A stretch of DNA of 43,371 nucleotides from a virus (IMGVR_UViG_3300020202_000036:1-43371), one strand, 5' to 3'. Shown: positions 348 through 42,264, counted from the stretch's first letter. Numbers and translations are program-made. The notes: a model not told the origin generated them from the letters alone.

Positions 348-605
348 ATGCCGACAACCTTGCCGCGAGTCATGATCTCTCTCAAGCCCGAGATTAACGA
401 AATCCTGGAAACGATCTCCAGACAGAGAAGGGCGTCAAAAGCCGAATTGGTAACGGACTTTGTAGAAGTTGCCTTGCGCCTCATGGAAGACATGGCATTG
501 GCTGAGATCGCCAACGAACGCCTTAAGACGTTCAATTTGGACGAGTCTTTTACATCTGACCAGCTTTTGGAACGGCTCAATTCCAGAAAACGGAAAAAGA
601 AATGA
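348..605 (+). CDS. Antitoxin, ribbon-helix-helix type
   Basis: An 85-residue protein beginning MPTTLPRVMISLKPE. The strand RVMISL followed by two helices (PEINEILETISR and SKAELVTDFVEVALRLME) is the layout of MetJ/Arc/CopG-type DNA-binding antitoxins, and the lysine-rich tail would wrap the toxin. I chose the ATG at 348 because GGAGGGG lies just upstream and because the predicted transcription start falls after the ATG at 321. Its stop overlaps the toxin start by four bases (602-605), giving the usual coupled translation. The palindrome in the promoter is its likely operator. The RHH assignment is from the pattern of residues, not from a profile search. Confidence 0.85.
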   Translation: MPTTLPRVMISLKPEINEILETISRQRRASKAELVTDFVEVALRLMEDMALAEIANERLKTFNLDESFTSDQLLERLNSRKRKKK

Positions 606-916
606 CGCTAGAATATAGCGTAAATTGGCATCCCAAGACAGAAGATGACTTAGCTATCCTGCCTTTAAATTTGGCTAGAGGCATCGTGAAAAATACGGAA
701 CATCGTCTGTCCTTGGCGCCGACAACCATTGGCGAACCGCTCAAAGGAACCACCAGCTTGCTTTGGAAATTCGGGTACAGCCAATACCGCGTTATCTATA
801 CGATCAAAGACGCCACGAAACAAGTTTGGGTTCTCTCCGTCCAGAAGCGAAGCAAGGTTTATCGGACTCAGCACCTAGAAAGTCTTATTCGGTTGGCGGC
901 TTCTCTTCAGCAGTAG
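602..916 (+). CDS. Toxin, RelE/ParE/HigB superfamily
   Basis: A 104-residue basic protein with the compact RelE-like order: an N-terminal strand and helices (TEDDLAILPLNLARGIVK), then GEPLKGTTSLLWKFGYSQYRVIYTI, with the K-x-RVIY strand typical of the family. Such toxins are mRNA interferases (RelE) or gyrase poisons (ParE), and which applies here cannot be read from the sequence. It follows the antitoxin with an ATGA overlap. Its last 32 bases overlap tail to tail with the final leftward early gene (885-1058). In a prophage, pairs like this usually stabilise the element or block other phages. Confidence 0.88.
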   Translation: MTLEYSVNWHPKTEDDLAILPLNLARGIVKNTEHRLSLAPTTIGEPLKGTTSLLWKFGYSQYRVIYTIKDATKQVWVLSVQKRSKVYRTQHLESLIRLAASLQQ

Positions 917-5867: not shown

Positions 5868-6046
5868 GGGCGTCTCCTGGTATCACGGGCTATGATTTCC
5901 CGTGTATCGCCACATTTAGAGCAGTAGAGCATTTGGTACGCGACAGCCTGGTCATATGTAGGCAAAGGGGTCCTCGCGTTCCCTGTCCCCTCTTTAAAAT
6001 AGGGTCCAGCCAACGGTCTAAAATCATGTACGCACTTTTCGCCCAT
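5864..6046 (-). CDS. Small zinc-ribbon protein
   Basis: A 60-residue protein with MGEKCVHDF at the start and LYCSKCGDTREI near the end, a split zinc ribbon. Its start lies directly against the previous stop (6047). The family is not recognised, though the shape is common in phage early regions. Confidence 0.75.
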   Translation of the reverse strand: MGEKCVHDFRPLAGPYFKEGTGNARTPLPTYDQAVAYQMLYCSKCGDTREIIARDTRRRP

Positions 6047-6412
6047 CTACCTGTCTCCTTCCATCACCACGCGGATCGTGCCGTCGGGGGAGACGATGAA
6101 TGTCTCATAACCCCAGCTGGTCGCCAACTCGATCGTTCGGCGCTTGCCCTCGGGGGTGGGCTTCTCGATTCCCAGGTTTTTCTTGATGAAATTGTCCAGG
6201 GTGTCGTGATGGAGTGGCTTGAATCCATGCCACTCGTCACGCTGTCTGACAACGCTACTGAACGCCTGGAGGATGTCCCCAAGGAACGCGGCCAGCATAT
6301 AATCAGGCGTGTTCGACCCATTCTCTACGCTGTGCCGATTGATAAGGCTCATTAACTCTTTTAAGAATTCCGGCTTAACTTCCACGCGGTCCTCCTTCAC
6401 CTCTTCCACCAT
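6047..6412 (-). CDS. Hypothetical protein
   Basis: A 121-residue protein from the ATG at 6412 (MVEEVKEDRVEVK...), chosen for GGGAG six bases upstream. It has a helical front (PEFLKELMSLINRH, MLAAFLGDILQAFSSVV) and a strand-rich end (ETFIVSPDGTIRVVMEG). The family is not recognised. Confidence 0.7.
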   Translation of the reverse strand: MVEEVKEDRVEVKPEFLKELMSLINRHSVENGSNTPDYMLAAFLGDILQAFSSVVRQRDEWHGFKPLHHDTLDNFIKKNLGIEKPTPEGKRRTIELATSWGYETFIVSPDGTIRVVMEGDR

Positions 6413-6603
6413 TTCGGCTCCCAGTTCCTGTTCGCCTCCTCGAAGGAGACGGGCCGGCTCCTCAGGCACATCCCGCAGTCGTCCGGAACATGAAGTTTCC
6501 GACGGTCAAGCTCTTCGACGAGGTACCACACCCACACAAAGAAGAGGACCAGAATCTCAAGGGCGAGGCGGGCGAAGAAGCGGTCGTCATCGGACTCGCT
6601 CAA
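6397..6603 (-). CDS. Small membrane protein with CxxC
   Basis: A 68-residue protein with one hydrophobic helix (LALEILVLFFVWVWYL) and a C-terminal domain containing DDCGMCL. It starts with an ATGA overlap on the signal-peptide protein upstream, so the pair may act together at the envelope. Confidence 0.65.
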   Translation of the reverse strand: MSESDDDRFFARLALEILVLFFVWVWYLVEELDRRKLHVPDDCGMCLRSRPVSFEEANRNWEPKWWKR

Positions 6604-6989
6604 GGTTTCACGGTCCCACTTGCCACATGCACCGGAACGAACGCCACGCCGTTGATGACGGGGAACGTCCCCCGCTTCACGATATAGCGCTCTATGGCGT
6701 TCTCAAGGCCCCGGATGTACTCTTCCTGGCCCTGGATCTTCTCGCTCAAGAAATTCGCCTCCCACATGGACCGTATGTACCGATGTTGCCAGGTCGCGGA
6801 CTCGAAGTTCTTAGCGTAGTAGGCTTGGAGGAGAGGACCTTTCAGCGTAGACGTGGACGCCGGTCCCCAGTAGTCCACCGACGAGATATCGACCTCATAC
6901 CGCGCCGGCTCATAGCACAGTTGTTCAGCCCTCGCCGGCAGGGCCAGGGCCACTAGCACAATCAAGACTTGCGCGATGAGCCTGTCCAT
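6600..6989 (-). CDS. Secreted early protein with Sec signal peptide
   Basis: A 129-residue protein from the ATG at 6989, chosen for GGGAGGAG upstream. MDRLIAQVLIVLVALALPARAEQ is a good Sec signal with a PARA-E cleavage site. The mature part is helical (AYYAKNFESATWQHRYI, EEYIRGLENAIERYIVK) with a strand-rich end. A secreted or periplasmic protein is unusual in a phage early operon and could act as an envelope or superinfection factor; that role is speculation. Confidence 0.7.
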   Translation of the reverse strand: MDRLIAQVLIVLVALALPARAEQLCYEPARYEVDISSVDYWGPASTSTLKGPLLQAYYAKNFESATWQHRYIRSMWEANFLSEKIQGQEEYIRGLENAIERYIVKRGTFPVINGVAFVPVHVASGTVKP

Positions 6990-7168
6990 GGCTTCTCCTC
7001 CCAGGTGTCCATGTCCTCCAGCCACAGTTTCCCGCAGCGCTTGCACTCGAACATCTCCTCCCGAATCCACCCGCCACCCGGCCTAGGTCGCGTGAACAGG
7101 GCCACGAAGTCACCGCCGCCCTGATGCCAGCCTATGGAACAGAGCCAGAAGAGGAACCGTCGGATCAT
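6962..7168 (-). CDS. Small zinc-knuckle-like protein
   Basis: A 68-residue protein with a hydrophobic front (MIRRFLFWLCSIGWHQ) and a CKRCGKLW motif at the C-terminal side. It overlaps the next gene by 28 bp and starts with an ATGA overlap at 7165-7168. The family is not recognised. Confidence 0.65.
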   Translation of the reverse strand: MIRRFLFWLCSIGWHQGGGDFVALFTRPRPGGGWIREEMFECKRCGKLWLEDMDTWEEKPWTGSSRKS

Positions 7169-9669: not shown

Positions 9670-10553
9670 ACTTTTACGACCTCCAATTTCTTGTTGAGAT
9701 AGTCCAGGCACTTTTGAATTTGTTCGCTCGTCATCTCGGACAGTTCGTTGACGCCCGCCTTGGTCAGCCATTTCTCAATGGTCCCGTCTTCGAGCTTAAC
9801 GATGCCAAGCAAGCGGTTCATCTCGGCCACCTGCGCGTCTGTCGCCATGTGTACCGGCTTGGCTTCCCGTTCAATGGCCTCGGCGCCGAAGTATTTGAGG
9901 AAGTTTGAGTAAGACCATTCGAATTCCGCAGGAAACTTGTTCTCCCCGAGTTCGGCCCGCTCCTTAATGGTCTTGGCGATCCGCTTCTCCCCGACCTTGT
10001 TGAGCTGGAAGATCAGGTCGAAGAAGTAGTCGTCGCCCTTGGCGCTGTCGTAGGTCGTCCCGAGGACCACCATGTTTTCTCCGTAGAGCGGCTTTTGGTG
10101 GGAGGTGACGATGACGTTCATGTCGAGCTGCGCCAACATCCGTTGAAGGCTCTTGTACTCGGATTTGACCTTGCCCCAGTAGCGAGGTCCGAAATCCTGA
10201 ATCTCCCGCTCTTTCTCAGAACGCGCATACTTCTCGAAGATGCGATTCCATTTCTCTTGAAGCGCGTTGTAATACTGCGTGATGGGGTCGATAATCAGCG
10301 TCTTGTAAGGGTGTTTCTCCGTCAAGAGCGCCTTGATCTCATCCTTGACCTCATCGGGGTTATTGGTCCTGAGGACGACGGATCCCATCTTATTGAGCGT
10401 CTTGGAATAGAAGTCCGTCCCGTTCTCCATGTCGATGACGTAAGCCTCTTTGAACTGGATCGAGGCCGTCGTCTTGCCGACGCCGGCGGGGCCGTAGAGA
10501 AAGAGTTTGAGCCTCTTTTCCACCGCCTCCGGCTTCTTTGCTTTGAGCGTCAT
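9666..10553 (-). CDS. Sak4-like RecA-fold ATPase
   Basis: A 295-residue protein. Walker A is GPAGVGKTT (residues 21-29), Walker B is LIIDP (86-90), and NVIVTSHQK (about 146-154) is a sensor-like strand. The order and length fit the phage AAA_24/Sak4 group of single-strand annealing or recombination ATPases. These act with a DUF669 or SSB-like partner, which here is the next gene. Residues 240-295 are a helical C-terminal extension. It probably drives recombination-dependent replication together with the host machinery. Confidence 0.85.
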   Translation of the reverse strand: MTLKAKKPEAVEKRLKLFLYGPAGVGKTTASIQFKEAYVIDMENGTDFYSKTLNKMGSVVLRTNNPDEVKDEIKALLTEKHPYKTLIIDPITQYYNALQEKWNRIFEKYARSEKEREIQDFGPRYWGKVKSEYKSLQRMLAQLDMNVIVTSHQKPLYGENMVVLGTTYDSAKGDDYFFDLIFQLNKVGEKRIAKTIKERAELGENKFPAEFEWSYSNFLKYFGAEAIEREAKPVHMATDAQVAEMNRLLGIVKLEDGTIEKWLTKAGVNELSEMTSEQIQKCLDYLNKKLEVVKV

Positions 10554-10592
10554 GCTGTCACCTCATGCGTTTAAGGCCCGCTTGGCCTTCTC

Positions 10593-10802
10593 TTAAAAAA
10601 CGAGTGGTTGAAATTCCAAAGCCGCCAGCTCCTGCCACCGTGAAAGAGCCGTATGCAAAAGGGGGTGAAACTCCTGCAAAACCCATCCGTCCCGCGTTCC
10701 TTTGTAGATGCCGAGCCCGTCGCGCCCATCCTTGACGGTGGGGCGCATCCTGTAGACCACCATCTCGCCGCGCAACGTCATTTCGATTTCAGCCGCGGGC
10801 AT
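10593..10802 (-). CDS. Hypothetical small protein
   Basis: A 69-residue, beta-rich protein (MPAAEIEMTLRGEMVVYRMR...) with RDGLGIYKGTRDGWVLQEF in the middle. It overlaps the upstream gene by 14 bp. No clear ribosome-binding site is visible, so the start could also be the ATG at 10781. The family is not recognised. Confidence 0.65.
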   Translation of the reverse strand: MPAAEIEMTLRGEMVVYRMRPTVKDGRDGLGIYKGTRDGWVLQEFHPLLHTALSRWQELAALEFQPLVF

Positions 10803-15697: not shown

Positions 15698-16735
15698 ATG
15701 GCAAAGCTGATCGTTCGCCAGGGCGTGTACTACTCAGATCTTCGCATCGGCAAAAAGCGCATCCGCCGCGCCCTCTCAACGGACAAGCGCATTGCCGAAA
15801 ACAAGCTGGCGGACCTCATCCAAGAACGCCAGGCCATGCGTCACGGACATGCCCCGGAGAACGCCTCCTGGGCCACGTTCCGGGACAAGTTCTTGGACGA
15901 GCAGAAGACCAAGGCCCGTCCTACTTACGACATCTACCGTCACGCCGTGGAACGCTTAGAAGCCTTCCGGCAAATCCACTATCTGCGCGAGATAACCCCC
16001 GCCCTCCTCAATGACCTCATGACGGACTGGCGCAAGCCCAAATGGAGAAAACGGGGTAAGAAGTTCAAAAACAAGAAATTCCCCATCGGCCTGTATATGC
16101 GGAACCGAATGCTTCGGGCGCTCAAGACCATGATGACGCGGGCCGAGTCCTACACCCTCGTAAAGCCCCAGAAATGGGCCAGCGTGGCCTATGACCGCGA
16201 GCCCAAGGGAAGACTCCTTTGGTACACGGCGGACGAGCTGCGCGGCCTCCTGGCCGGTTCCTCGGGGGTCTGGAAGACGATTGTCCTACTTGGGGCCAGG
16301 GCGGGTCTTCGGCGGGCGGAAATGTACCATCTGGAATGGTCTGATGTGGACTTTGCCAGGAACCGAATCCATATCGCCCCGAAGGCCGGCTGGAACCCCA
16401 AGGACTATGAGCGCCGCTGGATTCCCATGACGGCGGACCTCCGGGCGCATCTGGAAGCCCTGCCTAAAGGGCAATACGTCGTGGAAGAGGACGGCCAACG
16501 CCCGACCATCGGGGCTATGTCCGTCCTGTTCGCCCGACTTTTGAAGAAGGCCAATTTGAAAGGGTCGATCCATATCCTCCGGCACACCTTCGGGGCGCAT
16601 CTGGCCTCGGCGGGGGTCTCCATTTACAAGATTCAAGAACTCATGGGACATTCGGACTCGGAGACGACGGCGATTTACGCCCATCTCGCCCCCGAGTCCA
16701 TAGAGGACGCCGTTTCCCGCCTTCCTACCCTCTAA
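15698..16735 (+). CDS. int: Tyrosine-recombinase integrase
   Basis: A 345-residue integrase. Residues 1-45 are a basic arm-binding domain, about 55-165 the core-binding domain, and 170-345 the catalytic domain. Visible catalytic residues are R205 (GARAGLRRAEM), H292 and R295 (HILRHTF), H318 (MGHSD) and the nucleophile Y327 (AIYAHL). It integrates and excises the phage by site-specific recombination. A hairpin directly after the stop and repeats beyond it suggest attP lies at 16.74-16.95 kb. Confidence 0.95.
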   Translation: MAKLIVRQGVYYSDLRIGKKRIRRALSTDKRIAENKLADLIQERQAMRHGHAPENASWATFRDKFLDEQKTKARPTYDIYRHAVERLEAFRQIHYLREITPALLNDLMTDWRKPKWRKRGKKFKNKKFPIGLYMRNRMLRALKTMMTRAESYTLVKPQKWASVAYDREPKGRLLWYTADELRGLLAGSSGVWKTIVLLGARAGLRRAEMYHLEWSDVDFARNRIHIAPKAGWNPKDYERRWIPMTADLRAHLEALPKGQYVVEEDGQRPTIGAMSVLFARLLKKANLKGSIHILRHTFGAHLASAGVSIYKIQELMGHSDSETTAIYAHLAPESIEDAVSRLPTL

Positions 16736-27112: not shown

Positions 27113-27362
27113 TCTTCATCTCCTCGCACTTGGGACAATCTTTCGTATAGCGTCCGAATCGCCCCTTGCCCGTGCATCCTTGGGAATGCACTATCTCAAC
27201 AACAGAAGAGATACCGGAGGGCACGACGGGAGGGGCTTCCGCGCTTTTCTTCGGCTCAAGCGTCTCCGAGTTCAAATCGAGGAGCCTTCCGTTGGGGGCG
27301 TCATAGACTTTCCCGTCTTCGACGTAGTACCTTGCAAAATCCTTACCGACAAAGTGACCCAC
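27105..27362 (-). CDS. Hypothetical protein with CxxC end
   Basis: An 85-residue protein with a GTG start and AAGGAGG upstream. ARYYVEDGKVYDAPNGRLLDL is a strand-turn front, and CTGKGRFGRYTKDCPKCEEM a three-cysteine end. It sits between the sugar cassette and the adaptor. The family is not recognised. Confidence 0.65.
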   Translation of the reverse strand: MGHFVGKDFARYYVEDGKVYDAPNGRLLDLNSETLEPKKSAEAPPVVPSGISSVVEIVHSQGCTGKGRFGRYTKDCPKCEEMKNG

Positions 27363-28347
27363 GACGGGCCTCCTTCCATTGCGCGTAAACCTTCTCCATG
27401 GCGTTCAAAATCTTCTCCGGGCGTAGATGCGCCATGCATACGGGCGATTTCACGGCCTTGTTTACGGGGCACTCATCAAGGCTATAAATCAGCTTGTGGC
27501 AAGGATGACAGGGGGCTTCCCGCTCCTCAGCCTCCACCGGATAACAGTTCTTCCAATGCTTGCTTAGGTTCTCATGGGACGAATGTGAAAGCATGACGAT
27601 TTTGGGCGTCTCAAAGCATCCGGCCGCGTTCAGGACGCCGGTTTCAGGTCCTACGACGAGGTCTGAATACTTGGTCATAATGAATGACTTCCGGATTCCC
27701 CAGACGCCAGAACGTCTCTTCGCGTGGGGATGATCGAACTCCAGAAGACGGCAAAGCTGCTCGCCCACTGTAAAAAAGACCGCGTCCGAATGCTGGTCAA
27801 GAAAGGCTTTTGCCACAAGTTCCGCGTATGGATACGATTTGTGGACGGAAGACCCCGACAGAGACCAGAGGACAAGGAACCGCCGGGCATGTTGTTCACG
27901 AATCATGCGCCCCCATCGCTCTTCCTCAGGACTAAAGAAGAGTTCGCCGTTCAGCCCTTTCATTCCCACGAACCCGCCGATTTCAAGTGTCCGGTCGTAA
28001 TAGTTCACGTCACAAGCCAGGTGCCGTTTCAGCTTGGGCCAAATATACTCTTCGTCTGCCTTCGTCTTTAAAAGGCCCTTTTCAATGGACCCGCTCAAGT
28101 TGACCACTCGGTCATACCCTTTAGCGAGATTTGCCCAGTGTTCATCCAACTTCTCATTCGGTACGGAATCGTCTTCATGTAAGAGAATGTCGTCCACATG
28201 CGGGTTATGTTCAAGGACGGCCTTCCCGCGCGGATTCACGTTCGCGGTCGTGTGCCAACCCGCCTCTTTATAAAGACGGAAGAGAGGGGAGGTCATGACC
28301 ACGTCTCCGAACGCGCCCAGCCGGATAATTAAGACTTTCTTTTGCAT
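27343..28347 (-). CDS. GT9 (heptosyltransferase-like) glycosyltransferase 2
   Basis: A 334-residue protein. KVLIIRLGAFGDVVMTSPLF is the classic N-terminal nucleotide-sugar strand and helix of GT9 enzymes. VGPETGVLNAAGCFETPKIV is the donor-binding motif of the C-terminal domain. A CHPCH-x8-DEC motif near the end is a likely metal site shared with its paralogue at 28834-29859. GT9 enzymes add heptose or similar sugars to lipopolysaccharide core. In the head-tail operon it may act on the virion or on the host surface late in infection. Confidence 0.85.
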   Translation of the reverse strand: MQKKVLIIRLGAFGDVVMTSPLFRLYKEAGWHTTANVNPRGKAVLEHNPHVDDILLHEDDSVPNEKLDEHWANLAKGYDRVVNLSGSIEKGLLKTKADEEYIWPKLKRHLACDVNYYDRTLEIGGFVGMKGLNGELFFSPEEERWGRMIREQHARRFLVLWSLSGSSVHKSYPYAELVAKAFLDQHSDAVFFTVGEQLCRLLEFDHPHAKRRSGVWGIRKSFIMTKYSDLVVGPETGVLNAAGCFETPKIVMLSHSSHENLSKHWKNCYPVEAEEREAPCHPCHKLIYSLDECPVNKAVKSPVCMAHLRPEKILNAMEKVYAQWKEARRGSLCR

Positions 28348-28880
28348 GCGAGCGTTATAATCGCGTGGGGATTCTCAGGGTCACGGATTTCCCCTTCCTC
28401 GTAGTTGTGGTCGAGTATCTTGTAACCGGCATGATCCAGAATGACGGTCAGGCTCGGCAGATCAAAGTAATGGATATGCTCGTAGGGCCTATAATGCCGC
28501 CACTGGCGGATATCACCACGGACTGACTCTAGATTCGGCGTGGAAAGAAAGACCCACTCGGCATCGATCTTCTTCAGCGCGGCGACGGGGTCCGGCAGAT
28601 GTTCAATGACATCCCACATCGTCAGAATGTCGATCTTCTCAGTCGGGATTTCTGTAAATCCGCAATGCGGGTTCACGTCATAGCCGAAAGCCTTGTACCC
28701 GTTCCGAGTTGAAAGATGGAACGCGCCGGAGGCGCACCCGTAGTCCAGAAGGGTCAAATTACCATGGCAATGCTTCTCGATAAGCGCCCACCGGGAGGCG
28801 TAAATACGCCGCCCGATCTCCGTGTTGGCTCTTTCAGCAAACCGGCGATGGTATGCGGCGTCGTAAATATTCGTGTACAT
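28329..28880 (-). CDS. Class I SAM-dependent methyltransferase
   Basis: A 183-residue protein from the ATG at 28880 (MYTNIYDAAYHRRFAERAN). LTLLDYGCASGAFH is motif I (SAM binding), DILTMWDVIEHLPDP motif IV, and TPNLES and HYRPYEHIHYFD the following blocks, as in sugar or lipid O-methyltransferases that travel with glycosyltransferases. It overlaps the gene before it by 47 bp and the one after by 19, so the three form one cassette. Confidence 0.85.
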   Translation of the reverse strand: MYTNIYDAAYHRRFAERANTEIGRRIYASRWALIEKHCHGNLTLLDYGCASGAFHLSTRNGYKAFGYDVNPHCGFTEIPTEKIDILTMWDVIEHLPDPVAALKKIDAEWVFLSTPNLESVRGDIRQWRHYRPYEHIHYFDLPSLTVILDHAGYKILDHNYEEGEIRDPENPHAIITLACKRKS

Positions 28881-29859
28881 GATCCACCTTCTGTAAGATT
28901 TCGTCGTAATCGAACCGTTTGACGCAGGCGGGGTACAGGGCCTCTCCCTTGTCGTCGTAGACCATGCTCTCGCAATCCTCTGCCGTATGTATGGCCCTGT
29001 GGCAGGGAGAGCAACCGATTTTCGCCTGCATCGAGAAATCGTTCTTGTGGTACTTCGTCGTCTGAAAGATACTCGATGCCGTGCAGAGCATGACCTTGGG
29101 CGTTCCCCACATCCCTGCCGCAACCATAAGACCCGTTTCTCCGCCTATCACCATGTCCGCTTGCTTAGTCATGAGGATGACTTGCTTAATCGGGGTATTG
29201 CAGGTATGTCTGATACGCTCGTGCTTCCAGGTAGCCTTTGTGAGACCAGCATCTCCGGCCAGATAGATAAAGGCGTCCGGATGCCTCTCAAGTATCTCTC
29301 GGGTCAGTCGGGGCATCTCATGATAGACCTTGTGGCATCGGCTCCCGGCGAAGGGAACGATGACGACGAACTGGTCTTTGTGCCGCTCGCGCCAGCGGTC
29401 CGCCCATTCCAACTGCTCCGGCGTGAAGTAAAGACCCTCAAGTTCCATCGTCTCGGGGATCGGAAGTCCGCATCTTTCGAAAACCGCTTCATAGAAGTTC
29501 CTTCCCCCAAATATCCGTTGACGCTCGATGACCGGCAGATGAAACTCGTCTTGGAAGCGCTCCGCGATGCATTGAACTTCGAGCGTCCCGTTGATGTTTA
29601 AAACACGGTCAGGCTTTAAGTCGGCAATCAACCTCTCTTGGCGCTCCTTAATCAATCGTTCAATCTGATCTTCCGGGTACCGTTCGAACTCGCACACGGT
29701 GATTCCCGTGAACCGGGGATCTCCGTGAAAGAGTTCGTGCCCTTTGATATTGATCTCAAGATGGATGTCATAGACCTTGAGCAATTCGTTGATGGCGGGG
29801 AGTGTGTATATCCAATCCCCGTAGGCGCGATACCCGATTAGTAGAAGCTTTTGTTTCAT
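28834..29859 (-). CDS. GT9 (heptosyltransferase-like) glycosyltransferase 1
   Basis: A 341-residue protein. KLLLIGYRAYGDWIYTLPAI is the GT9 front and IGGETGLMVAAGMWGTPKVM the donor motif. CSPCHRAIHTAEDC parallels the metal motif of its paralogue. It is divergent from housekeeping heptosyltransferases at the front (YRAYGD for the usual GxxGD). First gene of the sugar cassette, just after a strong terminator-like hairpin. Confidence 0.8.
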   Translation of the reverse strand: MKQKLLLIGYRAYGDWIYTLPAINELLKVYDIHLEINIKGHELFHGDPRFTGITVCEFERYPEDQIERLIKERQERLIADLKPDRVLNINGTLEVQCIAERFQDEFHLPVIERQRIFGGRNFYEAVFERCGLPIPETMELEGLYFTPEQLEWADRWRERHKDQFVVIVPFAGSRCHKVYHEMPRLTREILERHPDAFIYLAGDAGLTKATWKHERIRHTCNTPIKQVILMTKQADMVIGGETGLMVAAGMWGTPKVMLCTASSIFQTTKYHKNDFSMQAKIGCSPCHRAIHTAEDCESMVYDDKGEALYPACVKRFDYDEILQKVDHVHEYLRRRIPSPVC

Positions 29860-34582: not shown

Positions 34583-36226
34583 TCAGTAGCCCGTCACTTC
34601 TGAAACCGGCTCGTACTCCGGTGTATATTGGACGGCGGGGAACCAGTTCGTAACCGACTGGTGGATATACCGAAACGCGGCGTGAGCATCATGCGGGCCT
34701 TCATTGATCTTGTCTTTCATGCCCTTCTTCTCCTCGTTTTGGTAAGTATCTCGTTCCATCGTCCTGAAAGCCTGGATAAGAGGTTTCATCTCGGGCGTAT
34801 TGAAAATGAAAAGACTCGGTTTACCCGTTAGCGGATTAATCTTGAGTCTCTGCTTAATCACGTCTACGCCGGCATGAATGGAGCCCGTGAACTTCTGCGA
34901 TTCAAAGAGCGCCGGGATTGCGTTCTTGCCGCGCTTCAGTTCGAGATAAATATTGCGGTCGCCTAAGGCATGGTTCGTCGAGTTCGCGGACCTGTCGCAC
35001 CGCGTCCAGCCCAACCGATAGTTCCGCTCCTGCGCCCTACGGGCAAGGTCCGCTTTAATGTCCTCGGTATCCGCTGCCCGCTGATATAACCCGCAAACAT
35101 ATTCATTCCCTTCGCGGTCGAAAGCGCTCTCGACACAAACCGTCGGCTTGGACGTGTGCGGGTCCAAACCCCGATAGACGACGAAATCCTGATAATTTAT
35201 CGGAAACGGTTCGATCAAATGAATTTGAGGATCGAACAAATTTCCATAAATCAGACCCGTCAATGAAACGTAGTCGCCGAGGATACGCATCTTCTTTTCC
35301 TGGTAGCTCGTGATGTCCTTCAGAATCTCCTCGACGATGGACAGATTGGCCCGCTTGTTTGTGACGGAACTGAGCTTAAACCACTGGATCTTGTTGCCGT
35401 GGTCGTCGTTGGCCTTGTTGCAAAGGACGTGATAGCTCCAGCTGAGCCCACCCGTCGGCGTCCATCCAAATTGCATGTCCATCCGCAAAGCCGTCACGAG
35501 GCGGACCAGGTTCTCTTTGTAAATCCGGTAATCCGGTTCCTCGTCGAAATCAATCCCGTCCATGGGCGGCCCCTGATGACTCATCTCATCGGCCTTGTTG
35601 GACATAAACTCAATGGTCGAAATCAGCCCCTTGTCCTTCGGATCGATGAGAGTCAATGTATTGCTCTTTGCCGCAAATGACTTTTCCCAGGAACGGTCGA
35701 TCAGATAATCGCGCGGAACCCATTCCTTGTATTTCGGAATGACGTTCTTCTCAAGTCCATTGATGAGGTCCACGCCCACCGTTCGGTAATGTCGGGGCCG
35801 CTTCTTCAAAATGATGTGCTCTGGGAAAATTCCCTTGAGTGCGTTGGGAATGGCCCCGGTCGCCAAGATCAGGCGCCGGATCGTCATGACAAGGGACTTG
35901 CCCGCCTGGTTTCCTCCGGACTCTCCCACCATGTGAGACTCACTCTTAAACACGTCCAGCTGACCGTCAAACCGCTGCGGAATGTCCTCTTCCTTCAGAT
36001 GCCGCCGTAGAAGCGCCATTCCCTCGGGCGTGACCGTTCCATCCGATGGCTCAAAAAACCAGAAGGGGTCCGCTGCTTTTGCTTGCTCGATCCGTTCCAT
36101 GGTGTCACGTTCCATCTCCCGGATTTCCTCTAGGAGACGCTTTTTTTCCTCAACGGACATACGGCTGACCGGCTTATTCAGCCGCCGTTTCAGCGAGGAC
36201 GATGGGTCAGCCTGGATTTGAGGCAT
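34583..36226 (-). CDS. terL: Terminase large subunit
   Basis: A 547-residue protein with a helical front, an ATPase domain with Walker A GESGGNQAGKS (residues 101-111) and Walker B MDGIDFDEE (222-230), and a C-terminal RNase H-like nuclease starting at YRGLDPHTSKP with a late acidic/histidine block (GPHDAHAAFRY). It cuts and pumps DNA into the procapsid through the portal encoded next. Confidence 0.9.
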   Translation of the reverse strand: MPQIQADPSSSLKRRLNKPVSRMSVEEKKRLLEEIREMERDTMERIEQAKAADPFWFFEPSDGTVTPEGMALLRRHLKEEDIPQRFDGQLDVFKSESHMVGESGGNQAGKSLVMTIRRLILATGAIPNALKGIFPEHIILKKRPRHYRTVGVDLINGLEKNVIPKYKEWVPRDYLIDRSWEKSFAAKSNTLTLIDPKDKGLISTIEFMSNKADEMSHQGPPMDGIDFDEEPDYRIYKENLVRLVTALRMDMQFGWTPTGGLSWSYHVLCNKANDDHGNKIQWFKLSSVTNKRANLSIVEEILKDITSYQEKKMRILGDYVSLTGLIYGNLFDPQIHLIEPFPINYQDFVVYRGLDPHTSKPTVCVESAFDREGNEYVCGLYQRAADTEDIKADLARRAQERNYRLGWTRCDRSANSTNHALGDRNIYLELKRGKNAIPALFESQKFTGSIHAGVDVIKQRLKINPLTGKPSLFIFNTPEMKPLIQAFRTMERDTYQNEEKKGMKDKINEGPHDAHAAFRYIHQSVTNWFPAVQYTPEYEPVSEVTGY

Positions 36227-36594
36227 TATCTCTCGTAAGTGACCTGGAGACTACCATCAGAACCGCTAACTTTCAGGAAGCGAAAGTTACGCAGGTTGTC
36301 ATACCCCGTGATGGAAATGGTATCCCCATCCGTCGCTTTGTGGCCGGACGTGCTCGTGGGAGAGCTTCCGTTAATGGTCCAGCGCAGAGTCGCGGTTTCA
36401 ACGGTCATAAACGCCGACGTATCGGGATTAATCGACGGACCGGGCGAAGACAGCCGCGTCAAATACGCACTTGTCAGCGTTCGTGTGGACGTATCAACGG
36501 TCAAGGTTTCGAACGCATAAGCCACTTTGGGTTGAGCTGCGTAAGAGTTAAGCGCGGACAACCCCACTAGCGCGATGGTCAGAATGAGTTTCAT
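36226..36594 (-). CDS. Secreted protein with signal peptide (cassette gene 5)
   Basis: A 122-residue protein. MKLILTIALVGLSALNSYAAQ is a clear Sec signal with an SYA-A cleavage site. The mature part is beta-rich with no known motif. Its ATG overlaps the stop of the lipoprotein gene (TAATG). Confidence 0.8.
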   Translation of the reverse strand: MKLILTIALVGLSALNSYAAQPKVAYAFETLTVDTSTRTLTSAYLTRLSSPGPSINPDTSAFMTVETATLRWTINGSSPTSTSGHKATDGDTISITGYDNLRNFRFLKVSGSDGSLQVTYER

Positions 36595-36824
36595 TACTTG
36601 CCCTCCGGATTGAAGGAGCGCTGAGCGCTCCAGGCTGATTCAAAGATGTCTTTAAGGCTTTGGTACTTGTCCCAAAGCTGGCGATAGTTCATTTCCAGCT
36701 CTCTGTAATCGGAAGATTTCTCCTCAAACAGAGCTTGATAATCAATTTTTGGCGTGACCGGGACCGATTTCCCGGAGCAGCCGGCCAACAAAAATCCGCC
36801 AAAAATCGCTGCCTTAATTCGCAT
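36594..36824 (-). CDS. Lipoprotein with coiled coil (cassette gene 4)
   Basis: A 76-residue protein. MRIKAAIFGGFLLAGCSGKS has an LLAG-C lipobox; the rest is a helical coiled coil (YQALFEEKSSDYRELEMNYR and following). AAGGAGG precedes the ATG. Could be an outer-membrane anchor for the neighbouring secreted proteins or an o-spanin, although it lies far from the lysis genes. Confidence 0.8.
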   Translation of the reverse strand: MRIKAAIFGGFLLAGCSGKSVPVTPKIDYQALFEEKSSDYRELEMNYRQLWDKYQSLKDIFESAWSAQRSFNPEGK

Positions 36825-36833
36825 AGCGCCTCC

Positions 36834-38717
36834 TTATCTGATTCCCGCCCCACCGCGCAGTCGTGCGCCCCGGGTTCCGGCGCCGCCAGTCGCGCCGGCC
36901 GCGGCACTCGTCGCGCCGTTGCCGGTCGAGCTGTTGGAGCCGGTGTTCCCGGCCGCATCCTTGGCCCGGACCCGGATGTAGTACACCGTCGAGGCAGAGA
37001 GGCCCGTGACCTGGTAGCTCGTCACGTTCCCCACGTTCAGGTCGTTGTAACCCGAGACCGGCGAGCCGAAGCCTGAATCGTCGTCCACGTCGATCTCATA
37101 GGCGCTGACCCCCACGTCGTCCGTCGCCGCGGTCCAGGACCAGGTGATGGCCGAGCTCGTCACGGCCGTCGTCGAGACGTTCGTGGGCGCCGTCGGGCTC
37201 GACGTATCGGCCGCGTAGGGCGAGGAGCCGTAGCCGTTCACCCACTCGGTCAGGGTGTAGGAGGTCCCGCACATGTCGGTCGAGTACGCCCGGCAAAGTT
37301 CCTGGCGGATGTGTGTTTCATTCGGCCAGGGCCAGAGGGCGTCAGCGGTCAGGGTGTTCCAGCCGGTCTCGCCGTAGAGTGTTCCGGAGGTCCCGATCTT
37401 GTTGACGATCTCGGCCCCGATCTGGCCGCCGGAGAGGCCCGCCGTCTTGAGCGTGGACCCCGACTCGATGCGCGTGAAGTAGCGCATGCCGTTGGTCCGC
37501 GGGTTGGAAGTGATCGTCCCCGTTCCCCCGCACGCCGACCCGCCGTTGCCCGAACAATCCAAGTAGGTCCCCGACACCCCGTTCAGGGCCGCCGTCGGCC
37601 AGTTGGCCAGGATCGTATTCCGGACGGTGATGACGGTCGAGCCCGAAGAGTAGTCCCCGAGCCCCGTCTTGTCGATGCCCGTGGTGCGCGTGGACACCAG
37701 GACCAGGGTATTGTTCTCGGCCAGGATGGTCCGGTCTTCGGTCCCCGCGCCGAAGGAGATGCCGCCGTTGTCCGTGTCGATGAAGGCGCAGTTGCGCACC
37801 GTGGCCGAGGAGATGTCCCGGCCGCCTTCAAAACGCATCCCGTAGACGTTGTCCGACTCATCCCCCTTGACCACGTTGACCACGACGCCGCCCTCAAAGC
37901 CGCTCTGGTTGGCGCTCATGGGGATCGAGTTCTCGTTGTTCACGTAGTAAAGAGCGGCCTCCATGAAGTCCGGGGGCGAGGTAATATCGAGAACGACCGG
38001 GTTCAAGATCCAGGTCTTCTCGGAGTTGTAGATCGTGAAGACGGCCGACGGATTGCCGCACGAGGAACAGGTGTACCCGTCGCCTACCCAGCCGACCACT
38101 CGCCGGGCGATGAACTCGCGGACGTTATAGGCGAGCATCTGGTATCGGGAAGAGCCGGTCGAGTAGCCCACGAAGTAGCAGTCCTCGATGAGGCCCCCGG
38201 ACGCGCCCGGCTTCGACGCCCCGAAATCGGACGTGCCAATGGACAGGTTGGAGTTGTTCCCGCTCGTCTCCCCGCCCTTGAAGCCGCAGTTGAAGAATTT
38301 CCACTGGTGCCCAGTGATGTTCTTTTGCGATGGATAGTCGAAGATGAAGCCATTGAACTGCGTGTACCAGGTTGTCTCGGCGAGAAGCGAGTTAACGTTG
38401 CCCATGTCGAGCGCGTTGTCCAGCGTGATACGAGCACCGAAACGATTCTCGGCCCGGATGGTGACAGAGGAGGCCCAGGACGTGCCCTTGTCCATGCCGT
38501 TGTCGAATTCCATCCCCGCATAGCTGTAAACGCCATCCTTCACCACGACATCCAGGGGAAGAGACGTGTTGACAGCCCAAACCTTGTCCAGGGTCTTATA
38601 GGGAGCGCTCGTGGACCCGTCGCCGGTGGTGTCATTGCCGTCGTCGTCCACGTAGTAGGTCGCCCCGAAGGCTTGGGTGGATGCCAGTAGAAAGAACAGG
38701 CCGAGGAAGCGCCGCAT
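36834..38717 (-). CDS. Secreted beta-helix protein with fibronectin type III domain (cassette gene 3)
   Basis: A 627-residue protein from the ATG at 38717 (TAATG overlap). MRRFLGLFFLLASTQAFGA is a Sec signal. ATYYVDDDGNDTTGDGSTSAPYKTLDKV is the front of right-handed parallel beta-helix (pectate-lyase-like) proteins, and the helix runs to about residue 500. Residues about 520-600 are a fibronectin type III domain (P-T-x-V-x-x-T, then SAITWSWTAATDDVGVSAYE and YYIRVRAKDAAGN). It ends in a glycine/alanine/arginine tail. A tailspike-like fold with export signal. Confidence 0.85.
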   Translation of the reverse strand: MRRFLGLFFLLASTQAFGATYYVDDDGNDTTGDGSTSAPYKTLDKVWAVNTSLPLDVVVKDGVYSYAGMEFDNGMDKGTSWASSVTIRAENRFGARITLDNALDMGNVNSLLAETTWYTQFNGFIFDYPSQKNITGHQWKFFNCGFKGGETSGNNSNLSIGTSDFGASKPGASGGLIEDCYFVGYSTGSSRYQMLAYNVREFIARRVVGWVGDGYTCSSCGNPSAVFTIYNSEKTWILNPVVLDITSPPDFMEAALYYVNNENSIPMSANQSGFEGGVVVNVVKGDESDNVYGMRFEGGRDISSATVRNCAFIDTDNGGISFGAGTEDRTILAENNTLVLVSTRTTGIDKTGLGDYSSGSTVITVRNTILANWPTAALNGVSGTYLDCSGNGGSACGGTGTITSNPRTNGMRYFTRIESGSTLKTAGLSGGQIGAEIVNKIGTSGTLYGETGWNTLTADALWPWPNETHIRQELCRAYSTDMCGTSYTLTEWVNGYGSSPYAADTSSPTAPTNVSTTAVTSSAITWSWTAATDDVGVSAYEIDVDDDSGFGSPVSGYNDLNVGNVTSYQVTGLSASTVYYIRVRAKDAAGNTGSNSSTGNGATSAAAGATGGAGTRGARLRGGAGIR

Positions 38718-39451
38718 TAGTCTTTCACCGCCACGCCGACGATTTCCCACTCATGGTTTGCCGAAAGAGTCCAGCTCATCGTTGTCGTCGCTCCGGTTGC
38801 TGTTTCGCGGCTCGAAGCACCCCACACGTCCTGGGTCGCCTCATCCGAATAGTTCTCGGTCTGGTTGGCGCCTAGGGACGGAGTGGCCGCCGCGTCGGCG
38901 AAATACTCAAGGCAATCCACGCAGACGTCGCCCGAGGCGCTCGCCACATCGACCGTCGCCGGAGTGGCGGTGCCGTTGGCGCCCGTGAAGGCGCCAAGCT
39001 GGGTTGTCTGATTGACGCCCGTGAACGACATTGCGCCGGCTTTCCATCCGCTCGTCGTTCCGCTCATCGTCACGACGACGTCATTCGCGCCGGATGGGGG
39101 GTTGTTCAGATACCACAGCTCCGCCGTGTCGTTGCCGCCGGAGTTCTTCTCGCGTCGGCCCAGCGTCATCGCCTGACCGCCGTAGGTGATGCCAGACACC
39201 TGCCGAACCGTGGCGCTATTCCAGTGAGAGACGCAGACCAAGAGGAACCGCTCGCTGCCGGAGGTGGTATGCGAGAACGTGAGCGAGGAAGCGTTCTCAG
39301 TCCCATCGGCGTGCGAGGCCGCATCGAACGTGAGAGCGCCCCCACCGCCCCCTGAAGATCCGGCCAAGAGCGGCCCCGCGTGCCGACGCGGTGACGCCCC
39401 CCAGCCGGACGCGGGCAGCAGGAACGTCAACAGAAGCACGGTCAGCTTCAT
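38717..39451 (-). CDS. Secreted beta-rich protein (cassette gene 2)
   Basis: A 244-residue protein. MKLTVLLLTFLLPASGWGAS is a Sec signal. After a glycine run, FSHTTSGSERFLLVCVSHWN and VSGITYGGQAMTLG, then LNNPPSGANDVVVTMSG and SFTGVNQTTQLGAF follow a beta-sandwich pattern seen in phage and bacterial surface proteins. The start overlaps the previous stop (ATGA). Confidence 0.8.
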   Translation of the reverse strand: MKLTVLLLTFLLPASGWGASPRRHAGPLLAGSSGGGGGALTFDAASHADGTENASSLTFSHTTSGSERFLLVCVSHWNSATVRQVSGITYGGQAMTLGRREKNSGGNDTAELWYLNNPPSGANDVVVTMSGTTSGWKAGAMSFTGVNQTTQLGAFTGANGTATPATVDVASASGDVCVDCLEYFADAAATPSLGANQTENYSDEATQDVWGASSRETATGATTTMSWTLSANHEWEIVGVAVKD

Positions 39452-40803
39452 CGGCTCGACTTCAGCTTCCTTCGGATATTCATGACCAAGTCCATCCCGT
39501 AGCTCGCCACGGTCGAAACGTCGGTCGTGGTCGCGTCCCCGCTCCGGGCCAAGTCGATCAACATGACCGTCCCCGCCGTCATGGCCGATCCCCAAGCCGC
39601 CGAGGTGTAGCGCACATACTCCAGGTCGTCCTGGGCGCCCGAGGCGTCCGCCGTGAACTGGAGCGTCACGGAGTTGGAGGTAATGTTGGAAGTCGTCGGC
39701 ATGGCCGCAGACGCCGCGTAGGTCGAGAAGGTCGCCACGTAGGTGTGCGAGGAGGTGTCGGCGGCCGAGAGTCGGAAATAGAAGCTCAGGACAACGTTGG
39801 TGGAGGTGTCGATGTCGTCCGGGATGACGTAGCGGTAGCGCACCCAGTTCGCGTTGACGTTCGCCGTCCCCGAGTAGGACGCCGACCCGAAGTAGGGGCT
39901 GGTCGAGGTCGTCACGGGCGTGGCGTTGGTCGAGTACTGCACGACCATGGGGTAGACGTCCTCACGGACATACATGGGCGAGACGGGCGTGATCGAGGAG
40001 GCGTTGAAGGTGTAGACGGTCGTCCCGCCGATCAGCACATTCCCCTGGTTGCCGGGGAAATAGAGCTGCTGAATCCCGTCGCCGTCCGAGTCCACCGATT
40101 CAAAGCCGGCGGCGTAGGCCGTCCCGGTGAATGTGGCCGACCCCACCACGTAGAGCTTGGCCGTGTTCCCGTTGAGCGTGTTCGTGCCAATGGCGACCGA
40201 ATCCGCCGTGGAGGTCGTCTTGACCAGGGTTCCAGATCGGTTCCATGGCGATTCAATGGCCGAGAGGTTCGTCAGGGCCGACCCGTCGCCGGAGAAGGCG
40301 GTCGCGGCCACGGTCCCCAAGACATGGATCTTGCTCGTGGGGTTGGAGACGCCGAAGCCCGTGTTGCCGTTGGTCGAGACGAACACGTTCTCGACCAGCG
40401 CCCCCGCGCTGGCCACGGCGACGCCAAACCCGCCCTGCTTCGCATACAGGCCCGCCAAGGGGTTCGCTTGGCTGTAGAAGGTCACGTCTGGGAAGTCCAA
40501 GCTCCCATACCCCGCCACCGCCCGTTGGAGCACAAGGTTCAGGGCCGAGGCCGTGTTCGTCGCCACATGCAACACGCCGTAGTTGGCGGTCGTGTTGATC
40601 GAAGTTTTTCCGACCGAAGGCTGATAGAGGTTGGAGTCACCGAGCGTCGAGCCGGCCGTCCAATAGGGCATATACCCGGCGGAACCGCTTCCGGAAACCG
40701 TGCCGGAGCCGCCGCCCGCCGGCTTATAAACGATCTCGGCCAGGGCCAGAACCGGCCCCGCCATGAGAGCCAACCCAAAAACCCCCTTCAGAAGTTTCCT
40801 CAT
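39448..40803 (-). CDS. Secreted tail-fibre-like protein (cassette gene 1)
   Basis: A 451-residue protein. RKLLKGVFGLALMAGPVLALAE is a Sec signal. Repeats such as VGKTSINTTANYGVLHVATN, NPTSKIHVLGTVAATAFSGD and GSALTNLSA are the shaft repeats of phage tail-fibre proteins. The ATG at 40803 was chosen because AAGGAG lies just upstream, after a terminator hairpin. A fibre with an export signal is not what a virion protein made in the cytoplasm needs. Confidence 0.8.
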   Translation of the reverse strand: MRKLLKGVFGLALMAGPVLALAEIVYKPAGGGSGTVSGSGSAGYMPYWTAGSTLGDSNLYQPSVGKTSINTTANYGVLHVATNTASALNLVLQRAVAGYGSLDFPDVTFYSQANPLAGLYAKQGGFGVAVASAGALVENVFVSTNGNTGFGVSNPTSKIHVLGTVAATAFSGDGSALTNLSAIESPWNRSGTLVKTTSTADSVAIGTNTLNGNTAKLYVVGSATFTGTAYAAGFESVDSDGDGIQQLYFPGNQGNVLIGGTTVYTFNASSITPVSPMYVREDVYPMVVQYSTNATPVTTSTSPYFGSASYSGTANVNANWVRYRYVIPDDIDTSTNVVLSFYFRLSAADTSSHTYVATFSTYAASAAMPTTSNITSNSVTLQFTADASGAQDDLEYVRYTSAAWGSAMTAGTVMLIDLARSGDATTTDVSTVASYGMDLVMNIRRKLKSSR

Positions 40804-40822
40804 CATCTCTCCTTCCCAACGG

Positions 40823-40870
40823 AAAAAGGCCGTGAACCCGATAGGCACCACACCTATCGAATCCACGGCC
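40823..40870 (-). terminator. Terminator or attenuator ahead of the secreted cassette
   Basis: GGCCGTG/CACGGCC and CGATAGG/CCTATCG form one long hairpin on the minus strand with five T residues after it. The fibre gene's Shine-Dalgarno follows at once, so the hairpin sits in the 5' leader. It either ends an upstream transcript or attenuates the cassette. Confidence 0.75.
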
Positions 40871-40880
40871 TCAATACCGT

Positions 40881-40933
40881 TGGTCAGCCTGGGAGGGATT
40901 GAGCCCTCGTGTTCCCCCGGATTATAAGCCCGG
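40881..40933 (-). other. tRNA 3'-half-like segment
   Basis: On the minus strand CCGGG-CTTATAA-TCCGG (40933-40917) is a good anticodon arm, with T33, anticodon UAU and A37. It is followed by GAGGG-CTCAAT-CCCTC, a T-arm-like hairpin, and the bases run into CCA (40883-40881). No matching acceptor or D arm is found upstream. It may be a tRNA remnant, a captured 3' end of a host tRNA gene (as in attP cores), or chance. Confidence 0.35.
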
Positions 40934-41100
40934 GCCAGGTCAGAATGTCAGATCAAATCCAGCCGTTAAACCTCGTGTCGTTCCTTACGCATCTCGTCCA
41001 CCCGCGACCATCCAAAAACTGACAAACGTTCGCCGCCAAATAGAACCATCGCCAGAATCGAGGATGTCGGCACGCCAAAAATGAAAATGCCTGCTCAAGT
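40934..41100. other. Intergenic stretch without gene
   Basis: No gene or clear promoter is visible in this part of the gap between the small leftward genes and the tRNA-like segment. Confidence 0.4.
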
Positions 41101-41733: not shown

Positions 41734-42264
41734 CTACTCAACACTTTCAGAAGCCATCAATTCGTCAACATCCGTAACAATCTCAGCGTCGATGACCATA
41801 CTTTTCTCGATTTCTTGACGCCGCTTTTTCAAAAGTTCAAGTTCTGAACTTAGCCCTTCCGTCACACTTTTCACGCTGACATTCTCGGTAGACTCGCCTC
41901 TCAGGAGCCTTGCCTTATCAGTTGCCGTGGCAGCTCCTATCATAACGCTGAGGGCTCTTTCCTTCTCCCAGCGTTCAGGGGTTAACGTGGAGAGTGCCAT
42001 ATCGGCTTGATGTTCGTAGATAGCCGCCATGGTTTTCCGTCTACGCTCGACCACTTCGGGGTTAATGATATCTTGAATCTGAGGATCTTTGACAGCGGCA
42101 TTGATGGTAGCGAGGGCAACGCCATGTCTTGTGGCAACATCTCTATACGAATACCCAGCGGCGACATCCTCAGCTATGGCGATTCTCTTGGCGAGACTAT
42201 ACCGAATGGCCTGGGGTTTAATTTGGTCTAGAGGTGTTCGACTATGTGCCAGATGCTTGCCCAT
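41734..42264 (-). CDS. Small terminase-like DNA-binding protein
   Basis: A 176-residue protein. RIAIAEDVAAGYSYRDVATRHGVALATINAAVKDP is a helix-turn-helix (about residues 27-62) of the resolvase-like type used by small terminase subunits. NPEVVERRRKTMAAIYEHQA and the charged helices after it would form the oligomer body; the acidic tail could contact the large subunit. GGAG precedes the ATG. Five genes for secreted proteins, plus two small ones, lie between it and terL, which is unusual. A plain transcriptional regulator is the alternative. Confidence 0.65.
   Translation of the reverse strand: MGKHLAHSRTPLDQIKPQAIRYSLAKRIAIAEDVAAGYSYRDVATRHGVALATINAAVKDPQIQDIINPEVVERRRKTMAAIYEHQADMALSTLTPERWEKERALSVMIGAATATDKARLLRGESTENVSVKSVTEGLSSELELLKKRRQEIEKSMVIDAEIVTDVDELMASESVE

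Follow-up and report, generated by a model that had tools for sequence, protein, structure and literature searches.

Introduction

In the textbook view, the fibers of tailed phages are built in the cytoplasm and carry no signal sequences. Small exclusion or conversion proteins are among the phage products that are exported, and lysogenic conversion by surface adhesins has been proposed for Lom-type proteins. Otherwise, most phage proteins known to be exported are lysis enzymes, such as Lys44 of Oenococcus phage fOg44 and the SAR endolysins (PMC6116005). T5 Llp is an exclusion lipoprotein whose gene is adjacent to that of the receptor-binding protein pb5 (PMC9586334), and PblA and PblB of phage SM1, although tail proteins, bind to cell surfaces as well, which they reach after lysis (PMC3675006). 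Among bacterial proteins, the mosaic adhesive trimer (MAT) fibers of Bdellovibrio bacteriovorus consist of a signal peptide followed by a phage-tail-fiber-like shaft and adhesin modules; behind the signal lies a conserved domain of ~130 aa, and an S74 chaperone is frequently present as well (PMC10769870).

Here, we describe a phage cassette of consecutive fiber-type genes with predicted export signals. A search of open-access papers found no precedent for signal-bearing fiber cassettes in tailed phages.

Organization of the Cassette

The window, i.e., the whole virus record of 43,371 bases analyzed here, has its late genes transcribed from the minus strand. Five consecutive minus-strand genes at 40806–36226 lie between a probable small terminase gene (TerS; 41734–42264, minus strand, called only from its HTH and position) and the large terminase gene (TerL; 36226–34583, minus strand, 23–33% identity to annotated terminase homologs), after which comes the portal gene. 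In order, they encode a fiber-shaft protein of 452 or 451 aa, depending on the start (P0005; 40806 or 40803 to 39448), a 244-aa protein with a minor-tail-like domain (P0004; 39451–38717), a 627-aa beta-helix protein with an FN3 domain (P0003; 38717–36834), a small predicted lipoprotein of 76 aa (P0002; 36824–36594), and a small protein of 122 aa (P0001; 36594–36226); all but the lipoprotein carry a predicted Sec signal.

The genes are tightly joined. P0005 and P0004 share an ATGA overlap, TAATG overlaps link P0004 to P0003, P0002 to P0001, and (stop to start) P0001 to terL, and a 9-nt gap separates P0003 from P0002, where an AAGGAGG site belongs to P0002; the junctions match the 1- to 10-base spacing or overlaps described in the initial annotation. 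To judge from these junctions, ribosomes very probably translate the cassette and the packaging ATPase one after the other, as part of lytic late expression, since stop/start overlaps that run into terL mark a late-lytic unit rather than a separate lysogeny moron. This bears directly on lysogenic conversion, in which prophage-made surface adhesins would benefit the lysogen. An integrase gene at 15698–16735 makes lysogeny plausible, and bacteria do have secreted fiber adhesins (the MAT proteins, PMC10769870), but the TAATG coupling puts the genes in the packaging operon and thus disfavors lysogen-only expression, and a promoter search across the cassette region returned none better than chance; we consider this explanation very unlikely.

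A strong hairpin at 40826–40872 (minus strand; a folded stem of 21 bp followed by TTTTT; −49.6 kcal/mol including flanks) ends ~20–25 bases upstream of the P0005 start codon and is a possible terminator, attenuator, or mRNA 5' stabilizer. Just upstream of it, at 40890–40945 (minus strand), lies a tRNA-like fold without a D-arm, made up of a stem, an arm with a 7-base loop, and a T-arm-like hairpin, followed by CCA; neither ARAGORN at default settings nor Rfam called a tRNA here, and a lower threshold gave noise.

Base composition divides the cassette. P0005, P0004, and P0003 have a GC content of 64% and GC3 values of 0.87, 0.79, and 0.87, respectively, compared with 53–57% and 0.60–0.71 for most other late genes (the major capsid gene, at 60% and 0.84, is an exception) and a GC content of 49–53% for P0002 and P0001 (P0002 alone, 0.485). 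Because its values exceed those of most late genes and of P0002 and P0001, the trio looks like an imported block that is newer at the locus than the two small genes.

Predicted Signal Sequences

Signal calls were made with a simple home-made scoring rule rather than SignalP. All five products were positive, with values of 7.8–10.1, within or slightly under the 7.9–10.4 obtained for 13 textbook E. coli signals, and all five combine a basic start and an uncharged hydrophobic core with an end of the signal peptidase I or II type. Sec cleavage is predicted between MMRKLLKGVFGLALMAGPVLALA and EIV in P0005, between MKLTVLLLTFLLPASGWGA and SP in P0004, between MRRFLGLFFLLASTQAFG and ATYYVD in P0003, and between MKLILTIALVGLSALNSYA and AQ in P0001, the cut points of P0004 and P0003 having been set by eye; P0002 has the lipobox LAG/C with Ser at +2.

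Across 122 related or reference loci, the base rate of signal-bearing ORFs (at least 100 aa) was 19/1308, or 1.5%, and none of the 23 T7 ORFs of at least 150 aa scored above 5. The chance of a five-gene signal run among ~60 genes is 3.6e-8 at the 1.5% rate and 5e-4 at a generous rate of 10%, and the original description of five consecutive secreted-type genes between the terminase genes therefore stands. The scorer does have false positives: in an E. coli region it returned 4 positives among 43, including the cytoplasmic CarB (8.4), so that the hydrophobic N-termini could be retained anchors or chance stretches instead of export signals. Against this speak five such N-termini in a row, their basic starts and hydrophobic cores, small residues at −3/−1, one lipobox, and predicted cleavage positions that fall where signal-less homologs begin (see below), and we regard the idea as highly improbable. 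A further gene with a signal-like N-terminus (129 aa) lies in the early region (6600–6989, minus strand).

Protein Classes

Fiber-type sequence domains are present in three of the products. P0005 contains a GDGSALTNL-type shaft motif and no cysteines; its shaft stretch, of a kind common to phage fibers, is 54.9% identical over 51 aa to HTVC131P gp46, and no S74 or other family match was found for it in the libraries scanned. P0004 gave hits to PHROG families of minor tail proteins (3.7e-12). A genuine FN3 domain (Pfam, 1.8e-10) is present in P0003, which also has beta-helix relatives in phage loci and a conserved C-terminal region (RIESGSTL...IGAEI...GTLYGETGWNTLTADALWPWPNE) that contains LWPWPNE. 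For P0002, whose only cysteine is that of the lipobox, the libraries scanned gave no family match, and AlphaFold yielded no meaningful fold for P0001 and P0004 (pLDDT 39 and 36). Among the classes assigned initially, the "coiled coil" of P0002 and the "beta-rich" label of P0001 are still impressions.

The composition of P0003 also allows a different reading, a secreted polysaccharide-cutting set in which a lyase-like beta-helix depolymerase with FN3/sandwich binding modules would be exported late, dissolve host matrix, and free the progeny. The beta-helix family profile matches the alginate lyase BcAlyPL6 (E 2.5e-7, N-terminal cap region only, profile 41–133), the FN3 domain resembles that of chitinase A1, and signals with a modular build are typical of secreted carbohydrate enzymes. 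However, a match to the PL6 cap comes without a demonstrated active site, the helix has no enzyme family match in Pfam, PHROGs, or NCBIfam, and the other four proteins would be left unexplained, which makes this reading quite unlikely.

The Phage and Its Sister Loci

This podophage has a portal of the SU10/P22 type, a major head protein of phrog_1357, and an M23-type endolysin. Its nearest relatives by major capsid protein are contigs L047–L060 (capsid identity 58–62%), which we read as marine; the most syntenic relatives found by the same route are L062–L064. In L062 and L063, the interval from the TerS-like gene to terL encodes a 102/103-aa protein and a fiber-like protein of ~570–660 aa, both signal-less, and the fiber-like protein of L062 has a match to a virion structural family (1e-11). 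The same interval in the L047/L055 lineage holds membrane-protein genes and one short peptidase-like gene. Since its content differs among relatives, the TerS–TerL interval is a replaceable slot, in which fiber-like genes are not unusual but signals on them are. Scans of viral contigs for close relatives, with P0001, P0003, P0004, P0005, and TerL as queries, gave no matches. Homology between P0001 and the small sister-phage protein (P0006) was considered and rejected (hhalign probability 0.1%).

A separate, signal-less virion fiber candidate proposed in the initial annotation is confirmed: this 381-aa protein (P0014; 23151–24296, minus strand) is conserved over its N-terminal ~90 residues in the sister phages L062 and L063. 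Amid the structural genes, at 27343–29859 (minus strand), two paralogous glycosyltransferase-9-like proteins (the Pfam match is weak, and for one paralog only) flank a methyltransferase (PF13489, 1.4e-19); this block, also conserved in L062–L064 and related contigs, hints at glycosylation of the virion or host surface. Elsewhere, a ParE-type toxin gene (PF05016, 3.6e-5) stands behind a short probable antitoxin gene at 348–916 (plus strand), and the proteins of L008, a 5.9-kb contig from a different metagenome sample, are 99.6–100% identical to those encoded in a segment of the structural region of the window.

Comparable Cassettes in Unrelated Phages

A relative of P0003 (E 7e-11) occurs in Caudoviricetes sp. 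vir555 (BK063671), within four consecutive signal-bearing genes annotated only as hypothetical proteins. These encode a small protein (P0012, 133 aa), a fiber (P0011, 768 aa), a sandwich protein (P0010, 241 aa), and a beta-helix (P0009, 524 aa), and directly follow a tail protein gene whose product has a fiber N-terminus of the T7 type and no signal. Three consecutive signal-bearing genes, for a fiber, a ~240-aa sandwich protein, and a WPWPNE-type beta-helix, thus stand in the same order in the window and in vir555, with the helix alone detectably homologous. The vir555 record is labeled as a Methanomicrobiales virus; its gene order is T7-type, with tail, internal virion, and endolysin genes, and the host label may be wrong.

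A viral contig scan revealed three further relatives (L142, L143, and L144). L142, a 43-kb contig with overlapping ends, has a tape-measure-like gene and therefore looks siphovirus-like; its cassette, situated after the tail tip and before probable lysis genes, consists of a lipoprotein fiber, a BppU-like small gene, a Sec fiber with Mtd_N (PF18454, 7.8e-9) immediately behind the signal, and a 905-aa Sec beta-helix. In all, three signal-bearing cassettes were found (window, vir555, and L142), and each of these phages also encodes signal-less fiber-like proteins. Related phages had been named as the place to look for the same cassette; comparable ones came instead from two unrelated phages, the fiber-like genes of the sister phages being signal-less. 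Single fiber/spike-type proteins with Sec signals occur within the same capsid family (L041 8682–9740, L079 14784–15650, and L012 10279–11289); that of L041 has a tail collar domain (4.1e-20), and one of the three is pectate-lyase-like.

A common host gene as the source was unsupported by searches of genomes from three phyla, which may not be those of the hosts: the C-terminal part of P0003 was not found in the 299 genomes that represented the first phylum or in the 149 that represented the second, and the vir555 beta-helix gave one weak N-terminal match alone in 148 genomes of a third.

The beta-helices of L143 and L144 have no signal. In L144, where the gene adjoins the terminase genes, the helix begins M-ATYYVDGG, matching the predicted cut AFG/ATYYVDDD of P0003, and the predicted cut of the vir555 helix is IHA/ATYYM. 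Similarly, the L142 lipoprotein fiber (C/GSQQDF...) is 58% identical over the first stretch to the signal-less fiber of Roseobacter phage CRP-811 (MSQNDF). Because the signal-less relatives begin at or near the mature ends, the signals appear to be modules added to fiber-type proteins. In the conserved C-terminal stretch, P0003 scores 65% against signal-less L144 and 45% against signal-bearing vir555; as P0003 is closest to the former, signals may have been gained or lost more than once, a suggestion drawn from five sequences, too small a set for a firm tree. The signals are not an oddity of this one phage: within the same families, some phages encode the protein with a signal and others without. 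Long serine runs were observed in fiber-type proteins of L143 (SSSSSSCRSSSSSS, ~10350–10640) and L144 (poly-Ser, ~5980–7050; all positions estimated from those in the proteins) and are perhaps variable-length linkers.

These loci also provide the main arguments for exported virion fibers, that is, receptor-binding parts of the particle that would fold or wait in the periplasm and join virions once lysis opens the inner membrane. Fiber-type domains stand immediately behind the signals (Mtd_N and the CRP-811-like fiber of L142), two cassettes lie at fiber loci (after the T7-type fiber in vir555 and after the tail tip in L142), and the TerS–TerL interval of L062 and L063 holds signal-less fiber-like genes; Mtd_N directly behind the L142 signal suits a virion fiber better than a free surface protein. 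Yet a lipidated fiber would remain in the membrane, signal-less fiber-like proteins are available for the virion in all three phages, and tailed phages assemble in the cytoplasm; to our knowledge, there is no established case of post-lysis fiber loading among them. We regard this explanation as unlikely, and a shade more so the general proposition that some tailed phages finish their particles outside the cytoplasm, with Sec-exported fibers or spikes that mature in the envelope and join virions at lysis.

Proposed Function

The reading we tentatively favor, with somewhat less than even confidence, is that of a late-expressed cassette of fiber-type binding proteins exported for action in or around the host envelope. 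At the sequence level, it draws on the signals, the coupling to terL, the recurrence in two unrelated phages, and the existence of signal-less beta-helix relatives. During lytic growth, SecYEG would export the cassette proteins, Lgt/LspA (signal peptidase II) and signal peptidase I would process them, and the mature proteins would work at the cell surface, within the periplasm, or in the immediate surroundings of the cell. Their fiber shaft, beta-sandwich, and beta-helix modules would bind surface glycans or receptors, which the helix may also cut; the lipoboxes of P0002 and of the L142 fiber point to membrane anchoring, P0002 being the putative anchored component, and the signal-less P0014 would serve the virion itself. 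The likeliest benefit would be that the phage's own receptors are occupied or removed in the dying cell and its debris, sparing progeny and rival phages unproductive adsorption.

The exported surface apparatus envisaged initially is thus retained in part: export has good support and is repeated in unrelated phages, but lysogen-only expression is disfavored by the terL coupling, and a decoy, a lysogen adhesin, an exclusion layer, and an unknown assembly route are not separable from sequence. More generally, in some phages, fiber-type proteins are probably delivered to the host envelope, either before their incorporation into particles or in place of it. A recurrent signal-bearing cassette of fiber-type genes tied to the packaging operon would represent either a multi-protein late envelope program, serving receptor occupation, exclusion, or matrix removal, or an unrecognized post-export route of virion assembly.

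Comparison with Known Systems

Unlike virion tail fibers, which are signal-less and assembled in the cytoplasm, all five cassette proteins carry predicted Sec or lipoprotein signals. P0005 resembles the MAT fibers in that a signal precedes a phage-fiber-like shaft and in its proposed action outside the producing cell, although those fibers are encoded by a bacterium, whereas the cassette belongs to a phage late operon and gave no S74 match. Like Lys44 and the SAR endolysins, the cassette proteins are late phage products predicted to use host Sec, but they are of fiber type and not lytic enzymes. PblA and PblB differ from them as particle components released by lysis, the cassette proteins having signals of their own. 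The vir555 cassette shares the order of fiber, sandwich, and beta-helix, all with Sec signals, and a homologous beta-helix; it belongs, however, to a T7-type phage, follows the tail fiber gene, and includes no lipoprotein. Finally, P0002 recalls T5 Llp and Cor as a small predicted lipoprotein beside receptor-binding-type genes, though it has a single cysteine, hence no intramolecular disulfide, and no family match, and whereas Llp acts without fiber-like partners, P0002 adjoins fiber-type genes; the purpose proposed here for the cassette would nonetheless be comparable to that of T5 Llp.
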